A stretch of 64,000 nucleotides of DNA, taken from Dactylosporangium siamense (GTDB taxonomy: Bacteria; Actinomycetota; Actinomycetes; Mycobacteriales; Micromonosporaceae). Location: contig NZ_BONQ01000050.1 in assembly GCF_016862795.1 (NCBI RefSeq), positions 62,001 through 126,000 on the forward strand. The letters are read 5' to 3'. Made by a program: the position numbers and the translations under genes. The notes under the pieces are model-generated. The model was not told the origin of the DNA and made no database searches. It worked only from the letters and a program-made list of their open reading frames with translations. Positions 24,624 to 30,170 of the stretch are shown one piece after another (the first letter of the stretch is position 1; each line of letters opens with the position of its first letter).

Positions 24624-24652
24624 TTGACACGGGGCGCGCCCGAAGAGATATT
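24624..24652 (+). promoter_or_regulatory. SigA-type promoter of the substrate-binding protein gene
   Basis: TTGACA at 24624-24629, 17-base spacer, GATATT at 24647-24652. Predicted transcription start near 24659 falls inside the operator that begins at 24656, about 115 bases before the GTG at 24774. Confidence 0.7.
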
Positions 24653-24655
24653 TGG

Positions 24656-24674
24656 CAACCAAGCGCTTGTTAGG
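24656..24674 (+). promoter_or_regulatory. Palindromic operator, copy 1
   Basis: CAACCAAGCGCTTGTTAGG, centred on the perfect 10-base palindrome CAAGCGCTTG, placed just after the -10 box over the predicted start of transcription. The identical 19 bases occur in reverse orientation at 27771-27789, placed the same way behind another promoter. A TetR- or LacI-type repressor is likely, but no such gene is in the window. Confidence 0.72.
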
Positions 24675-24773
24675 TTCGAGGACTCCTCGCCCGACCGCAC
24701 GCAGGAACGACGTGGCGATAGCGACGTAACGGTTGAGCCCAATGCATTTGTCCCGGTGAGGTAAGGGGTAGAC

Positions 24774-25985
24774 GTGGCCACATTCAGGAGATCGGCGACG
24801 CTTGCTGGAGCGCTGATCGCCGCGTTGGTGGTGTTGGCGGGCTGCAGCAAGAGTGGCTCCGACGCACCGAACACCGGCACGGCGACCGGTAAACCCATCA
24901 TCATCGGCTTGGACCAGGACAGCACTGGTCCGGGCGCTTCATACAGCAACATTTCCGGCAAGACGATCCGGCTGGCCATTCAGGACATCAACGACAAGGG
25001 CGGCGTGCTCGGTAGTCCGCTGCAGCTCGTGGTGGGCAACGACGAGAGCGACCCGACCAGGTCGCCGGCCGTGGTGCAGAAGTTGGTCGGCGAGGGCGCC
25101 AAGCTGGTGCTGATGCAGACGGGTAGTGCGGCAACGGCGCAGGCCAAGCCGATCCTCGCCCAGCTCGGCATCCCTGCCATCGCCCCCACCAGCGTGACCC
25201 AGACGCTGGTCGACCCGCCGAACAACGAGTTCATCTACATGCTCGCCAACGCGACCGGCGACTGGGCCAAGGTGTACTGCGGAGCGTTCGAGAAGGCCAA
25301 CATCAAGAAGATCGGCGTGCTGACCGACGACTCCCCGACCATGGCCGCGGTGGACAAGGCGCTGTTCGACGCGATGCCCTGTGTGCAGATCGCAGCGTCC
25401 GAGAAGGGTGCCACCGCGGCGTCCGACCTGTCGGCGCAGGTGGCCCGAATCAAGGACGCGAACGTCGACGCGGTGATGGTGACGAGCCTCGGTGGCGCGT
25501 TCGAGGTGCTCGCGCAGAACACGCTCGCCAGCCAGTTGGCCGCGAAGCCGCGGTTCTCCCTCGCGTCGATCGGCAACCAGCCGGACTCCTGGAAGCTGGC
25601 CAACCCGGGCGCCCTCAACGGTTTGGTGTTCATGGGTTCCATCAACAGCCAGAACCCTCGTACCCAGGAGCTCACCAAGTTCCTGAAGGACAAGAACGGC
25701 GCCGACTACGAGATCACGGCCTACGATGCCCAAGCCTGGGACACCGTGCACATCGTCAAGCTCGCGATCGAGAAGGCCGGCGGCGCGGACGACCCGAAGA
25801 AGCTCAACGAGGCGATCCAGAGCATCACCGGATACCAGGCCTCGTTCGGCCAGGCAAGCTTCACCCTGTCCTACTCCGCCACCAAGCACCTCGGTACGGA
25901 TGGCCTGTGCGGCCTGTCGCTGATCGAGTTCGGCGCGGACAACAAGCCGAAGGGACCGTGGGCGACCTACCAGCCGCTCTGCTGA
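24774..25985 (+). CDS. ABC transporter substrate-binding lipoprotein (branched-chain amino acid type)
   Basis: 403 aa, GTG start after AAGGGG. Signal peptide with lipobox LAGC, so Cys24 should be lipidated. The body is a type I periplasmic binding fold of the LivJ/Peripla_BP_6 class: DQDSTGPGASYSNISGK, then AIQDINDKGGVLG, then VVGNDESDP. The family binds amino acids, amides, aromatic or hydroxy acids. No permease or ATPase genes are next to it, so it must use a transporter encoded elsewhere or act as a sensor protein. A strong hairpin terminator follows its stop. The promoter and operator shared with the hydroxyacid dehydrogenase gene at 26732 suggest that its ligand enters the same pathway. 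Confidence 0.88.
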   Translation: MATFRRSATLAGALIAALVVLAGCSKSGSDAPNTGTATGKPIIIGLDQDSTGPGASYSNISGKTIRLAIQDINDKGGVLGSPLQLVVGNDESDPTRSPAVVQKLVGEGAKLVLMQTGSAATAQAKPILAQLGIPAIAPTSVTQTLVDPPNNEFIYMLANATGDWAKVYCGAFEKANIKKIGVLTDDSPTMAAVDKALFDAMPCVQIAASEKGATAASDLSAQVARIKDANVDAVMVTSLGGAFEVLAQNTLASQLAAKPRFSLASIGNQPDSWKLANPGALNGLVFMGSINSQNPRTQELTKFLKDKNGADYEITAYDAQAWDTVHIVKLAIEKAGGADDPKKLNEAIQSITGYQASFGQASFTLSYSATKHLGTDGLCGLSLIEFGADNKPKGPWATYQPLC

Positions 25986-26001
25986 TCGGACCGGAAGCTG
26001 G

Positions 26002-26030
26002 CCGTGGGGCGGACATCCTCCGCCCCACGG
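26002..26030 (+). terminator. Strong hairpin terminator
   Basis: A perfect 12-bp stem (CCGTGGGGCGGA / TCCGCCCCACGG) with loop CATCC, 16 bases after the stop of the binding-protein gene. It is not followed by a T run, which is common in high-GC actinobacteria. Confidence 0.8.
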
Positions 26031-26100
26031 TCGTCATCCGTCCTGGTTCAGCGGCCATGACGCAGCACCGCATCGACAGACTCGAGGAAGTGGGTGACCA

Positions 26101-26673
26101 ATGCCGCAGGACGACCAGTTCGAGGAATCACGGGTCCGGGTGACCATGGCCGTTACTGACTGCCTGCACCGGTATGCGAGGGCGGTCGATCGGTGTGACT
26201 GGGACTCGGTGCGTGCGTGCTACCACGACAACGCCTTCGATCACCACGGTGCGTACCGAGGAGGGGTCGACGGGCTGATCGAGGACATGAAAGCTCGCCA
26301 TGCACAACTGGACTCGTCGGTTCATTTCATCACCAACGTGATCGTTGACCTGCCTGACCCGGATGTCGCATTGGTCGAGTCCTACTGCCTGTGTTATCTG
26401 AGGCGCCGTGAACTCGAAGCCTCCGGCGCGCAGCAAATGACGACGGTGAAATGTCGCTACCTGGACAAATTCACGCCGGATGCCGTTGGGCGGTGGCGTA
26501 TCGCCTCCCGCATGGTGTTGTTTGACGAACTGTGTGTCGGCGAGATTCGGGACAGCCGGCCACCGGCAGCCACTCGATCGGAGAGGGATCGAAAGGACCC
26601 ATTGTGGGTCTTTCTTGATCGCGGAGCGGACTGGAACTCAGCAGATTATGCCGCTGGGTCGAAACGCCAGTGA
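26101..26673 (+). CDS. NTF2-like / SnoaL-type protein
   Basis: 190 aa from an ATG preceded by GAGGAAG. Its first 140 residues match the SnoaL-like (alpha+beta barrel) fold: an opening helix (LHRYARAVDRCDWDSVRACYHDNAF), HHGAYRGGVDGLIEDM, then SSVHFITNVIVDL with long strands. Relatives act as small hydratase/isomerase/dehydratase-type enzymes or ring-hydroxylating oxygenase-like subunits on aromatic or polyketide substrates. It follows the terminator of the binding-protein gene, so it may have its own weak promoter or depend on read-through. It lies convergent with the dehydrogenase gene. Third positions are less GC-rich than the average of the window. Substrate unknown. Confidence 0.75.
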   Translation: MPQDDQFEESRVRVTMAVTDCLHRYARAVDRCDWDSVRACYHDNAFDHHGAYRGGVDGLIEDMKARHAQLDSSVHFITNVIVDLPDPDVALVESYCLCYLRRRELEASGAQQMTTVKCRYLDKFTPDAVGRWRIASRMVLFDELCVGEIRDSRPPAATRSERDRKDPLWVFLDRGADWNSADYAAGSKRQ

Positions 26674-26731
26674 CCGGGAGCGCGCCGACCCCCGGCAAAC
26701 CCTCGGCGCCGGCCGAGCCCGCCTTCGGCGC

Positions 26732-27694
26732 TTACGCCTCGGCCGGGATTACCCGAACCGGGGTGCCCTGCAGCCATGACACGACGTCTTCCACCACGTG
26801 CGAGAAGAACCGCTCGTACATCGGCACCGAGACATAGCCGATATGTGGTGTCAGGACGGTGTTCGGCGCGTCGCGCAGCGGGTGGTCTGCCGGCAACGGC
26901 TCGACGGAGAACACATCCAGCGCGGCGCCGGCGATGACGGCGTCCGACAGGGCCTCGGCCAGGGCGTACTCGTCCACGATCGGCCCGCGCGAGGTGTTGA
27001 CCAGATAGCCGCGCGGGCCGAGCAGTGCCAGCTCGGGTCGACCGATCAGGTTCCTCGTGCGTTCACTCAGCTTGAGGTGGACGGTTGCTATGTCGGCGCG
27101 CTCGAACAGTTCGCGCTTGCCGACACGCTGCACGCCCATCGCCTCGGCCCGCTCGCTGGTGAGATTCTCGCTCCAGGCGACGACGTCAACGTCGAAGGCC
27201 CGCGCGTAGCGGGCGATCCTCGAGCCGATATTGCCCAGCCCGATGATGCCGAGGGTCGATCCAGCCAGCTCGGGACCGATCGTGGTCTGCCACCGCCCGG
27301 CCCGCAGCGCGGCATCCTCGGCCGGCACCCGACGGGTGACCGCCATGATGAGGGCCCAGGTCAGCTCGGCCGTGGTGTGCGGCACGCCGCCAGTTCCGCA
27401 GACCACGATCCCGCGGGCATGTGCGGCCGCGACGTCGATCGCCGCGTTGAACGGACCGGTGGTGACCAGGAGGGCCAGGTTGGGCAGCGTGTCGAGGACC
27501 GCCGCCGGGAACGCCGTCCGCTCCCGCATCGCCACGACCACCTCGAACGGCTCCAGCCGGCGGACCAGGTCAGCCGGGTCGGTGATGTGGTCGTGAAAGA
27601 ACGTGACGTCGGCCCGGCCGTCAAGCGGTGTCCAATCGGCGCTCGACCGGGCGACGCGCTGATAATCGTCAAGGACGGCGATCCGGATCGGCAT
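26732..27694 (-). CDS. D-2-hydroxyacid dehydrogenase (NAD-dependent)
   Basis: 320 aa with GAAGGAG upstream of the ATG. Classic D-isomer-specific fold with NAD-binding GIIGLGNIGSRIA, and a complete catalytic set: Arg in NTSRGPIVDE, Glu in DVFSVEPLP and His in LTPHIGY. It reduces 2-keto acids to D-2-hydroxy acids or runs the reverse. Expression is probably controlled by the operator 77 bases upstream, identical to that of the binding-protein gene. Substrate cannot be read, though glyoxylate/hydroxypyruvate or aryl-pyruvate are usual choices for this family. Confidence 0.88.
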   Translation of the reverse strand: MPIRIAVLDDYQRVARSSADWTPLDGRADVTFFHDHITDPADLVRRLEPFEVVVAMRERTAFPAAVLDTLPNLALLVTTGPFNAAIDVAAAHARGIVVCGTGGVPHTTAELTWALIMAVTRRVPAEDAALRAGRWQTTIGPELAGSTLGIIGLGNIGSRIARYARAFDVDVVAWSENLTSERAEAMGVQRVGKRELFERADIATVHLKLSERTRNLIGRPELALLGPRGYLVNTSRGPIVDEYALAEALSDAVIAGAALDVFSVEPLPADHPLRDAPNTVLTPHIGYVSVPMYERFFSHVVEDVVSWLQGTPVRVIPAEA

Positions 27695-27770
27695 GGCGCG
27701 GGCTCCTTCGATTGTGGATCCAGTTCGTCGCGGTGGCGCCGCTGACCGTCAACACCCGCTATCGTGTACG

Positions 27771-27789
27771 CCTAACAAGCGCTTGGTTG
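27771..27789 (-). promoter_or_regulatory. Palindromic operator, copy 2
   Basis: On the minus strand reads exactly the same 19 bases as 24656-24674 and lies 4 bases beyond the -10 box of the dehydrogenase promoter, covering the predicted start of transcription. Confidence 0.72.
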
Positions 27790-27793
27790 TGCC

Positions 27794-27822
27794 ATTCTGT
27801 TTCGGCGCTCGGGGCGTGTCAA
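27794..27822 (-). promoter_or_regulatory. SigA-type promoter of the hydroxyacid dehydrogenase gene
   Basis: Minus-strand TTGACA at 27822-27817, 17-base spacer, CAGAAT at 27799-27794. Same -35 box and same spacing as the promoter at 24624-24652. Confidence 0.7.
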
Positions 27823-28156: not shown

Positions 28157-29092
28157 GTGGCCGACGGGACGCGGATCTGCGTGCTGCCGGCCGCACCGCA
28201 CTCCGCTCCGGCCGACCGCGACCAGATCGAGGATGCGGTCCGGGCGGGCGGGGGCACGCTCAGTGGGGTGGCCGACGCCGACGGGATGATCTGGACCGAC
28301 TGGTCCGACCCGGCGGCTCTGGGCGCCACGCTGCGCGAACACCCGCAGGTGCGCTGGGTGCAGCTGGTCACGTCGGGCGTGGACGCGTTCGGGCCACTCA
28401 TCACCGATGACCGGGTGTGGACGTCGGCCAAGGGCGCCTACGCCGAGCCGATGGCCGAGTGGGTGCTGGCCACGCTCCTCGCCGGGTTCCGCGGCGTGCC
28501 GGGCTACGCCCGCGACCGCCGGTGGGAGCCGCAGTCCACCCGCTCGCTGTTCGGCGCGCGCGTCACGATCGTCGGCGGGGGAGGGGTGACCAGCGCCCTG
28601 ATCCGGCTGCTGGCGCCGTTCGGGGTGACCATCGACGTGGTGCGCCGGGCTCCGGTGAACGTACCCGGGGTCCGTCGCACTGTGGGGCCGCAGCTGCTCG
28701 AGGAGCTCGCACCGCAGACGGACGTGCTGGTGCTGGCGCTCGCCCTGACACCGGAGACGGTCGGGTTGGTGGACGCCCGGTTGCTCGAGCGGTTGCCGGA
28801 CGACGCCTGGCTGGTCAACGTGGCCCGCGGCGCGCTGGTGGTCACCGATGACCTGACCGTGGCGCTCGAGACAGGACGCCTCGGCGGTGCGGTGCTGGAC
28901 GTCACCGAACCCGAACCACTGCCGGCCGGGCACCGGCTGTGGCGCCTCGCGAACTGCCTGATCACGCCGCACACAAGCTGTCCGGCCGAGTTGGCCGCGC
29001 CCTTGCTGTTGCGACGAGTTCGGGACAACGTCGCGCGGCGGGTCGCGGGGCTGCAACTCGACGGGGTGGTGGATCCGCGTGCCGGCTATTGA
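28157..29092 (+). CDS. D-isomer-specific 2-hydroxyacid dehydrogenase
   Basis: 311 aa, GTG start. It is a divergent second member of the family: nucleotide-binding TIVGGGGVTSALI, catalytic Arg in NVARGALVV, Glu in DVTEPEPLPAGH and His in ITPHTS are all in place. The N-terminal catalytic subdomain is shorter than in the enzyme at 26732. Overlaps the next gene by 14 bases, so the dehydrogenase and the FMN oxidase should be made together. Likely works on the same 2-keto/2-hydroxy acid pool as its neighbours. Confidence 0.85.
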   Translation: MADGTRICVLPAAPHSAPADRDQIEDAVRAGGGTLSGVADADGMIWTDWSDPAALGATLREHPQVRWVQLVTSGVDAFGPLITDDRVWTSAKGAYAEPMAEWVLATLLAGFRGVPGYARDRRWEPQSTRSLFGARVTIVGGGGVTSALIRLLAPFGVTIDVVRRAPVNVPGVRRTVGPQLLEELAPQTDVLVLALALTPETVGLVDARLLERLPDDAWLVNVARGALVVTDDLTVALETGRLGGAVLDVTEPEPLPAGHRLWRLANCLITPHTSCPAELAAPLLLRRVRDNVARRVAGLQLDGVVDPRAGY

Positions 29093-30170
29093 TTGGGCGG
29101 ACCTCGAGGCGACGGAGGCGGCCGCCAGGCTGCGGCTGCCCGAAGAGGTGTACGACTACTTCGCCGGTGGCGCCGGCGACGAAACGACCCTGGCCGCCAA
29201 CGTCGCGAGCTGGCGGCAACGACTTCTGGCACCGCGCGTGCTGCGTGGCGTGCGTGGCGTGGACGCCGGCGTCGAGGTCCTGGGTTGCCGGATGACCACA
29301 CCGATCGCGGTGGCGCCGATGGGTCTGCAGCGGATGGCCCACCCCGACGGCGAGATCGCCACCGCGGCCGCAGCAGCGGCGACAGGCACCGTCCTCAGTG
29401 TCTCGACCTACGCCACCTCCACTGTGGAGGAGGTGGCCGCGGCCGGTGGCGTCCAATGGTTCCAGGCCTACGTGCTGCGGGACCGCGGCCTGAGCCGGGA
29501 TCTGCTGCAGCGCGCCGCGGCGGTCGGCTACCGCGCCGTGTTGCTGACGGTCGACGCGCCGGTCGCGGGCGACCGCCGCCGCGACCGCCGCCACGGTTAC
29601 CGGCTGCCCACCGGCGCGAACCTGCGGCTGGCCAACTTCCCTGAGCGTGGGCAGGTTTCGGCCAGCTACTCGATCGAACTGGAGAACACCCTGACGCCCG
29701 ACCTGATCGGCTGGGTCGCCGACGTCAGCGGCCTGCCGGTCGCGGTGAAAGGCGTTCTGCGCGGAGACGACGCGAAGGTCGTCGTCGCAGCGGGGGCCAG
29801 CGGGGTCGTCGTTTCCAACCACGGCGGTCGGCAGATGGACGGCGCGGTAGCCACCGCCGACGCGTTGGTCGAGGTCGCCGCGGCGCTGTCCGGCACCCCC
29901 GCGCACGTCCTGGTGGACGGCGGTATCCGCACCGGTGCGGATGCGGTGCGGGCGCTGGCGCTGGGCGCCCACGCGGTCCTGGTGGGTCGTCCGGTCCTCT
30001 GGGCCCTGGCGGTCGGAGGCGAGGAGGGTGTGCGTGGTCTGCTGACCGCGCTGCGCGAGGATCTGCTGCGCACAATGACACTGTGCGGCGTGTCGTCGGT
30101 GGCCGAGATCGGTCCCGACCTCCTGCGCGGACGGGTGATGGCAGAAGCCCCCGTCCCATCATGTTCATGA
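29079..30170 (+). CDS. FMN-dependent alpha-hydroxy-acid oxidase/dehydrogenase
   Basis: 363 aa, GTG start inside the previous gene. TIM-barrel flavoenzyme of the LldD / glycolate oxidase / lactate oxidase family: PEEVYDYFAGGAGDE, AVAPMGLQRMAHPDGE, VAVKGVLRGDDAK with the conserved Lys, the catalytic-His motif VVSNHGGRQMDG, and VDGGIRTGADAVRALALGA for FMN phosphate. It oxidises an L-2-hydroxy acid to the 2-keto acid, in the cytoplasm or at the inner membrane face. Paired with D-specific dehydrogenases, it could invert or interconvert the stereochemistry of one hydroxy acid. Confidence 0.88.
   Translation: MPAIDWADLEATEAAARLRLPEEVYDYFAGGAGDETTLAANVASWRQRLLAPRVLRGVRGVDAGVEVLGCRMTTPIAVAPMGLQRMAHPDGEIATAAAAAATGTVLSVSTYATSTVEEVAAAGGVQWFQAYVLRDRGLSRDLLQRAAAVGYRAVLLTVDAPVAGDRRRDRRHGYRLPTGANLRLANFPERGQVSASYSIELENTLTPDLIGWVADVSGLPVAVKGVLRGDDAKVVVAAGASGVVVSNHGGRQMDGAVATADALVEVAAALSGTPAHVLVDGGIRTGADAVRALALGAHAVLVGRPVLWALAVGGEEGVRGLLTALREDLLRTMTLCGVSSVAEIGPDLLRGRVMAEAPVPSCS

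Follow-up and report, generated by a model that had tools for sequence, protein, structure and literature searches.

Steroid and steroid-fragment uptake is poorly understood. The closest known system to the one described here is the KstR2 regulon for catabolism of the steroid C and D rings in Mycobacterium and Rhodococcus, in which the KstR2 motif is a 14-bp palindrome, AnCAAGnnCTTGnT, and the sequence CAACCAAGCGCTTGCTCGG, found upstream of M. tuberculosis kstR2, is gel-shift positive for KstR2 (PMC3068626). The inducer of classical KstR2 is HIP-CoA, the coenzyme A (CoA) thioester of methylhexahydroindanedione propionate (HIP) and the product of FadD3, and no D-2-hydroxyacid step is listed among the HIP pathway enzymes of the regulon (PMC5380842). 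In Nocardioides simplex, no gene responded more strongly to phytosterol than KR76_25195 (59-fold induction), an ATP-binding cassette (ABC) amino-acid transporter gene; kstR2 and fadD3 lie in its cluster, as does a second ipdAB (PMC7807495). In Rhodococcus jostii RHA1, the ABC transporter CamABCD, together with CamM, serves the re-uptake of excreted cholate intermediates (PMC8399759, PMC6678751), and according to a 2016 survey no steroid uptake system had yet been identified in taxa lacking Mce4 (PMC4810484). Here we analyze a 64,000-nucleotide stretch of the Dactylosporangium siamense genome (contig NZ_BONQ01000050.1, positions 62,001 to 126,000; the window), in which one 19-base sequence, CAACCAAGCGCTTGTTAGG, lies behind two promoters. 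We give a probability of roughly 0.85 to an account in which both copies are operators of a KstR2-like repressor encoded on another contig (C110) and control an importer binding protein and a dehydrogenase with a probably captured promoter, with a bicyclic CoA thioester as inducer.

Results

A preliminary description of the window had reported the 19-mer as an exact pair behind two matched promoters and had read it as a repressor operator. Scanning the window found CAACCAAGCGCTTGTTAGG exactly at 24656-24674 on the plus strand and at 27771-27789 on the minus strand, with no third copy in the window at three or fewer mismatches. The promoters were also as described, each with a TTGACA element and a 17-base spacer, and the 19-mer follows the −10 box after 3 bases at P1 and after 4 bases at P2. 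The features are as follows.

24624 to 24629, plus strand: −35 box TTGACA of promoter P1 (from sequence)
24647 to 24652, plus strand: −10 box GATATT of promoter P1, 17-base spacer (from sequence)
24656 to 24674, plus strand: predicted operator 1, KstR2-type, core AcCAAGcgCTTGtT at 24658-24671 (consensus and proven site in PMC3068626)
24774 to 25985, plus strand: lipoprotein-type LIV/HAAT substrate-binding protein, 403 amino acids (Pfam Peripla_BP_6, 8e-40)
26101 to 26673, plus strand: SnoaL-like protein (Pfam SnoaL_4, 3e-19), 115 bases downstream of the binding-protein gene on the same strand
26732 to 27694, minus strand: D-2-hydroxyacid dehydrogenase, 320 amino acids (Pfam 2-Hacid_dh_C, 2e-56; 2-Hacid_dh, 7e-11)
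27771 to 27789, minus strand: predicted operator 2, the identical 19-mer (window and genome scans)
27794 to 27799, minus strand: −10 box CAGAAT of promoter P2, 17-base spacer (from sequence)
27817 to 27822, minus strand: −35 box TTGACA of promoter P2 (from sequence)

The inner 14 bases of both sites fit AnCAAGnnCTTGnT exactly, and both sites lie in a promoter region, as is expected of a KstR2 operator. Moreover, comparison of CAACCAAGCGCTTGTTAGG with a 19-base stretch of the gel-shift-positive CAACCAAGCGCTTGCTCGG found 17 of 19 bases alike and two different. At the 73% GC composition of the window, about 8e-8 copies of this 19-mer are expected and none appeared in 100 shuffles. The pair alone is nevertheless weak evidence, because 64 kb of DNA of the same composition should contain about 0.6 exact 19-base repeats when any sequence is allowed. 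The weight given to the 19-mer rests on its identity and distribution and not on its being repeated.

The preliminary description had called for a genome scan that should lead to the regulator gene, which was expected to carry a site of its own. The scan of the whole genome (12.7 Mb, 296 contigs) found 2 exact copies of the 19-mer; 4 places match if one mismatch is allowed and 7 distinct places if three are allowed, counting as one place a site at C110:145367 that matches on both strands. All seven places sit in two loci, the window (C50) and C110 at 101.8-157.3 kb, rather than being scattered in many copies, whereas a reversed control pattern gave 1 place in the same scan. The bare 14-mer AnCAAGnnCTTGnT was not enriched genome-wide (9 places versus 10 for the control), and its matches on C10, C96, and C182 were not counted. 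The discriminating part of the site is instead a CG-centered core with its flanks. Seven copies of the ten-base core CAAGCGCTTG occur in the genome, six of them at the two loci, and the seventh, on C47, was treated as chance because its flanking bases are missing and no regulon genes are near.

One strong homologue was found in the genome with a KstR2 query (match at C110:141392-141970; the identity derived from this query is approximate). The gene, at C110:141380-141970 on the minus strand, encodes a predicted 197-amino-acid TetR protein whose best structure matches, nearly full length, are KstR2 proteins: 2ibd from R. jostii RHA1 (4.7e-52), 4w97 from M. tuberculosis (1.3e-49), and, also among the best PDB matches, 4w1u from M. 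tuberculosis, all three scoring about 1e-49 or better. The next structure match was Mce3R (1.3e-22). The DNA-reading segment GILSGSLYHHF is the same in the C110 protein, in RHA1 2ibd, and in M. tuberculosis KstR2, and the regulator has its own site, AGCAAGCGCTTGGT at C110:142086-142099, between its gene and the divergent ipdA. Two further TetR genes of this contig were rejected as the regulator, one of them near the importer described below (L017:14617-15243) and the other at L019:8235-8792; each had only a BetI-like NCBIfam match far below cut-off, and the KstR2-like gene fits far better than either. We conclude that, by its operator and neighbors, the predicted C110 regulator is KstR2-like in function.

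Related regulators were also seen in other genomes. Extra KstR2-like paralogues, 74 to 77% identical to the C110 regulator, occur in D. roseum, D. fulvum, and D. sucinum (L174, L173, and L175), with a perfect ACCAAGCGCTTGTT just upstream; D. roseum has two, arranged in tandem. The Nocardia carnea genome (G110) has five KstR2-family regulators, one classical and four of other branches.

The five C110 sites lie near homologues of the steroid C/D-ring breakdown genes fadD3, ipdAB, ipdC, ipdF, and echA20, in operons whose limits are inferred. One site precedes a LIV-type binding-protein gene followed by a permease gene and two ATPase genes, which together make up a complete ABC importer. A second, a three-mismatch variant, is at a FadD3-type ligase gene (NCBIfam 766 bits versus a cut-off of 657), and a third lies in the kstR2-like/ipdA pair, which is followed by ipdB and an ipdC-type gene (nitronate monooxygenase). 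A fourth precedes an operon headed by ipdF with genes for a MaoC-type protein, EchA20, and an acyl-CoA dehydrogenase, and the fifth precedes another AMP-binding ligase gene. The preliminary claim that the binding-protein and dehydrogenase genes form one regulon was thus right in placing both in one predicted regulon, but that regulon is larger and centered on the C110 ring-degradation cluster. Nor is the class of ligand open, as had been supposed: because HIP-CoA serves classical KstR2, the inducer here is predicted to be the CoA thioester of HIP or of a relative. Beside the C110 ligase, a divergent FlK-type thioesterase-like gene (PF22636; L019:4310-4987) shares the operator region with the ligase gene, and this neighbor is retained in several congeners.

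The binding protein in the window had been called an orphan, and no transporter genes adjoin it. It shares, however, 73% identity with the C110 binding protein that belongs to a complete site-bearing LIV transporter, and through that paralogue the Peripla_BP_6 protein is linked to a LIV permease and ATPases. The layout of TTGACA, spacer, and operator recurs before binding-protein homologues in relatives, with the position of the P1 TTGACA kept in six other Dactylosporangium and two Virgisporangium genomes and GATATT unchanged in the D. fulvum orthologue promoter. Scanning GTDB genomes yielded 64 named binding-protein loci that could be used, among them loci from Dactylosporangium, Virgisporangium, Micromonospora, Sphaerimonospora, Rhodococcus, Nocardia, Microbacterium, and Nakamurella. 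In the 500-base region before each homologue, the motif was perfect in 23 and within one mismatch in 38 of the 64, counts that are not independent because the loci are related; shuffled upstream regions gave no perfect motif and 0.8% within one mismatch. A KstR2-like gene lies directly upstream of the binding-protein homologue in 27 loci, and EchA20-IpdA-IpdB genes do so in a Microbacterium and in an actinomycete metagenome-assembled genome (MAG). No homologue was found on plasmids at E 1e-40.

The chance that the 19-mer pair is a coincidence or duplication artefact without regulatory function is very small. Exact 19-base repeats are not rare at this GC content and P2 looks like a copied promoter, but homologues in many species have a correspondingly placed site upstream, the sites cluster with a regulator gene, and they match a gel-shift-proven site. 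Chance origin was rejected on the genome clustering and the conservation of the sites. We conclude that the repeated 19-mer is very probably a repressor operator overlapping two promoters, as the preliminary description had proposed, and that the repressor is of the KstR2 type.

Three further observations concern the neighborhood of the binding-protein gene. The SnoaL-like gene is possibly the second gene of the P1 transcript, to judge from spacing only. In Virgisporangium (L041:3802, L042:3968), the binding-protein site is preceded, at a distance of about 1 kb, by a second perfect KstR2 motif. A Comamonas-labelled MAG contig (L123) carries a 56% identical ligase homologue beside a LIV operon with a 44% identical binding protein and no KstR2 motif, possibly by transfer or mis-binning.

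The dehydrogenase reached no equivalog cut-off in NCBIfam, and its promoter appears to have a different history. P2 is not a plain copy of P1; from its −10 box onward it resembles the promoter of the C110 ligase gene at 155690-157300 and those of its orthologues, and the 27 bases acagaatggcacaACCAAGCGCTTGTT are the same in P2 and in the D. vinaceum acyl-CoA ligase promoter. The D. fulvum genome encodes a dehydrogenase 93% identical to this one. Before that gene stands an operator with one mismatch and no promoter, and ligase remnants lie between the site and the gene (VSQFFGSNETGA and the final 51 residues, at 71%). No site was found before nine other dehydrogenase homologues, including an 88% identical copy in D. 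fulvum. Because P2 resembles a ligase promoter, D. fulvum keeps a ligase remnant, and other homologues are without a site, we think that P2 was probably captured from an acyl-CoA ligase gene that once stood between operator and dehydrogenase and has since been lost. Separately, at 28157-30170 of the window (plus strand), another gene resembling D-2-hydroxyacid dehydrogenases overlaps the start of a flavin mononucleotide-dependent alpha-hydroxyacid dehydrogenase gene; its identity to the first dehydrogenase is about 29%, and no KstR2 site is nearby.

One could instead suppose that the dehydrogenase works in the ring pathway, that operator 2 belongs with it functionally, and that the ligase loss was incidental. 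P2 is intact in this genome, and the dehydrogenase, SnoaL-like (84 to 85% identical in D. fulvum), and binding-protein genes stay together in two species with order and strand changed. We nevertheless regard such a pairing as unlikely: at the threshold used the dehydrogenase is present in only two of seven Dactylosporangium congeners (this genome and D. fulvum), the nine other homologues stand without a site, the D. fulvum operator has lost its promoter, and the listed HIP pathway enzymes offer no matching step. Membership of the dehydrogenase in the regulon, as first claimed, therefore holds as predicted co-regulation, but membership in a shared pathway does not follow from it, because the operator probably came from the lost ligase. 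We conclude that promoter capture probably brought the dehydrogenase in as a passenger; its metabolic role is unproven and we propose no step for it.

Several findings weigh against the KstR2-type account as a whole. Maximum-likelihood trees put the regulator outside the branch of M. tuberculosis and RHA1 KstR2, in one that includes Virgisporangium and other relatives, and N. carnea has both kinds. The protein is named KstR2-like rather than KstR2 because of this separate branch, and because it is not a strict orthologue its inducer may differ. About a dozen Actinomadura binding-protein homologues mostly lack the motif, and N. simplex KR76_25195, whose phytosterol induction would be independent expression evidence for the account, is likened to the window binding protein by description and not by sequence. 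The only other operator-linked dehydrogenase is the D. fulvum copy, whose operator is decayed. Finally, KshA (PF19298) had no match in this genome, so HIP should not arise internally by the aerobic 9,10-seco route. PF19298 was matched in 36 of the 151 genomes searched, clearly in Virgisporangium, only distantly in D. sucinum and strain AC04546, and not in D. vinaceum, D. fulvum, and D. roseum (single-contig chromosomes) or D. aurantiacum; among seven Dactylosporangium genomes there was thus no match in five, this one included, and a distant one in two.

These findings also bear on the substrate. Either HIP or a similar fragment from other organisms is imported, or another cyclic acid is degraded. 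A possibility that we rate at somewhat under even odds is that the same operator and regulator family serves the breakdown and import of such an acid, which might be of the terpenoid or naphthenic kind. The KshA tally and the position of the regulator apart from classical KstR2, with both kinds in N. carnea, speak for it, as does an extradiol dioxygenase nearer BphC than HsaC, which was rejected as HsaC and gives no evidence for A/B-ring breakdown. Against it, IpdA (9e-103) and IpdB (5e-93) have as their best structure matches the IpdAB CoA transferases of R. jostii and M. tuberculosis, far ahead of the next CoA transferase family (1e-19 and 8e-16). The FadD3, IpdF, and EchA20 homologues are above curated NCBIfam cut-offs, and in Virgisporangium KshA is present and this regulator type is the sole one at the threshold used. 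We conclude that the predicted steroid-fragment substrate is likely.

Discussion

The predicted operators and their family are well supported. From the elements that were computed (site identity, regulator gene, regulon content, site conservation before binding-protein homologues, and the D. fulvum ligase remnant), we infer binding, repression, inducer, transported substrate, and dehydrogenase role as follows. Without inducer, a KstR2-like dimer on the site 3 to 4 bases past each −10 box would block RNA polymerase. The repressor would come off the DNA once a bicyclic fragment of the steroid rings accumulates as its CoA thioester (HIP-CoA or a closely related compound). P1 would then supply the LIV-type importer with a second substrate-binding lipoprotein, the importer's own binding-protein gene having the same operator, and uptake of the compound degraded by the co-regulated FadD3/Ipd pathway would increase. 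P2 would raise the dehydrogenase, probably under this control through loss of the intervening acyl-CoA ligase gene; the dehydrogenase would illustrate regulon entry through loss of a preceding gene.

As the seven Dactylosporangium genomes have no clear KshA match, the pathway may feed on imported bicyclic fragments. We tentatively suggest, at about one chance in three, that Dactylosporangium species, unable without KshA to open the steroid nucleus aerobically by the 9,10-seco route, are scavengers of steroid C/D-ring fragments excreted by other degraders, with the KstR2-type regulon coupling a LIV-type importer and a second binding protein to the HIP pathway. The full-looking HIP gene set and the apparent absence of KshA make cross-feeding on excreted fragments testable in culture. 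The LIV-type transporter family becomes a concrete candidate uptake system, tied to C/D-ring breakdown by operator, neighborhood, and possibly induction in one relative, and if the suggestion is true, actinobacteria would have a general uptake system, not assigned until now, in LIV-type importers that carry HIP and are under KstR2-like control.

The system resembles the Mycobacterium and Rhodococcus KstR2 regulon (PMC3068626, PMC5380842) in operator consensus, in the DNA-reading segment of the regulator and its own site, and in targets of the FadD3, IpdABC, IpdF, and EchA20 types. It differs in the branch of the regulator and in including a LIV-type importer and remote satellite genes in the window, and no complete aerobic 9,10-seco pathway is evident here (KshA is missing; KstD, HsaA, HsaB, HsaD, and Mce4 were not searched for). 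Cluster C of N. simplex VKM Ac-2033D is similar, by gene description and not by sequence, in having kstR2, fadD3, a second ipdAB, and a strongly phytosterol-induced ABC amino-acid transporter gene, but that organism has kshA genes and a full steroid pathway (PMC7807495). CamABCD (ro04888-ro04885) and CamM of RHA1 are likewise importers serving steroid breakdown intermediates and offer an uptake precedent, likened by description; they differ in that KstR2 control is not reported in the accessible parts of those papers (PMC8399759, PMC6678751). Finally, the window protein shares the fold family and lipoprotein form of LIV/HAAT binding proteins, whereas its predicted ligand is a bicyclic acid and not an amino acid.

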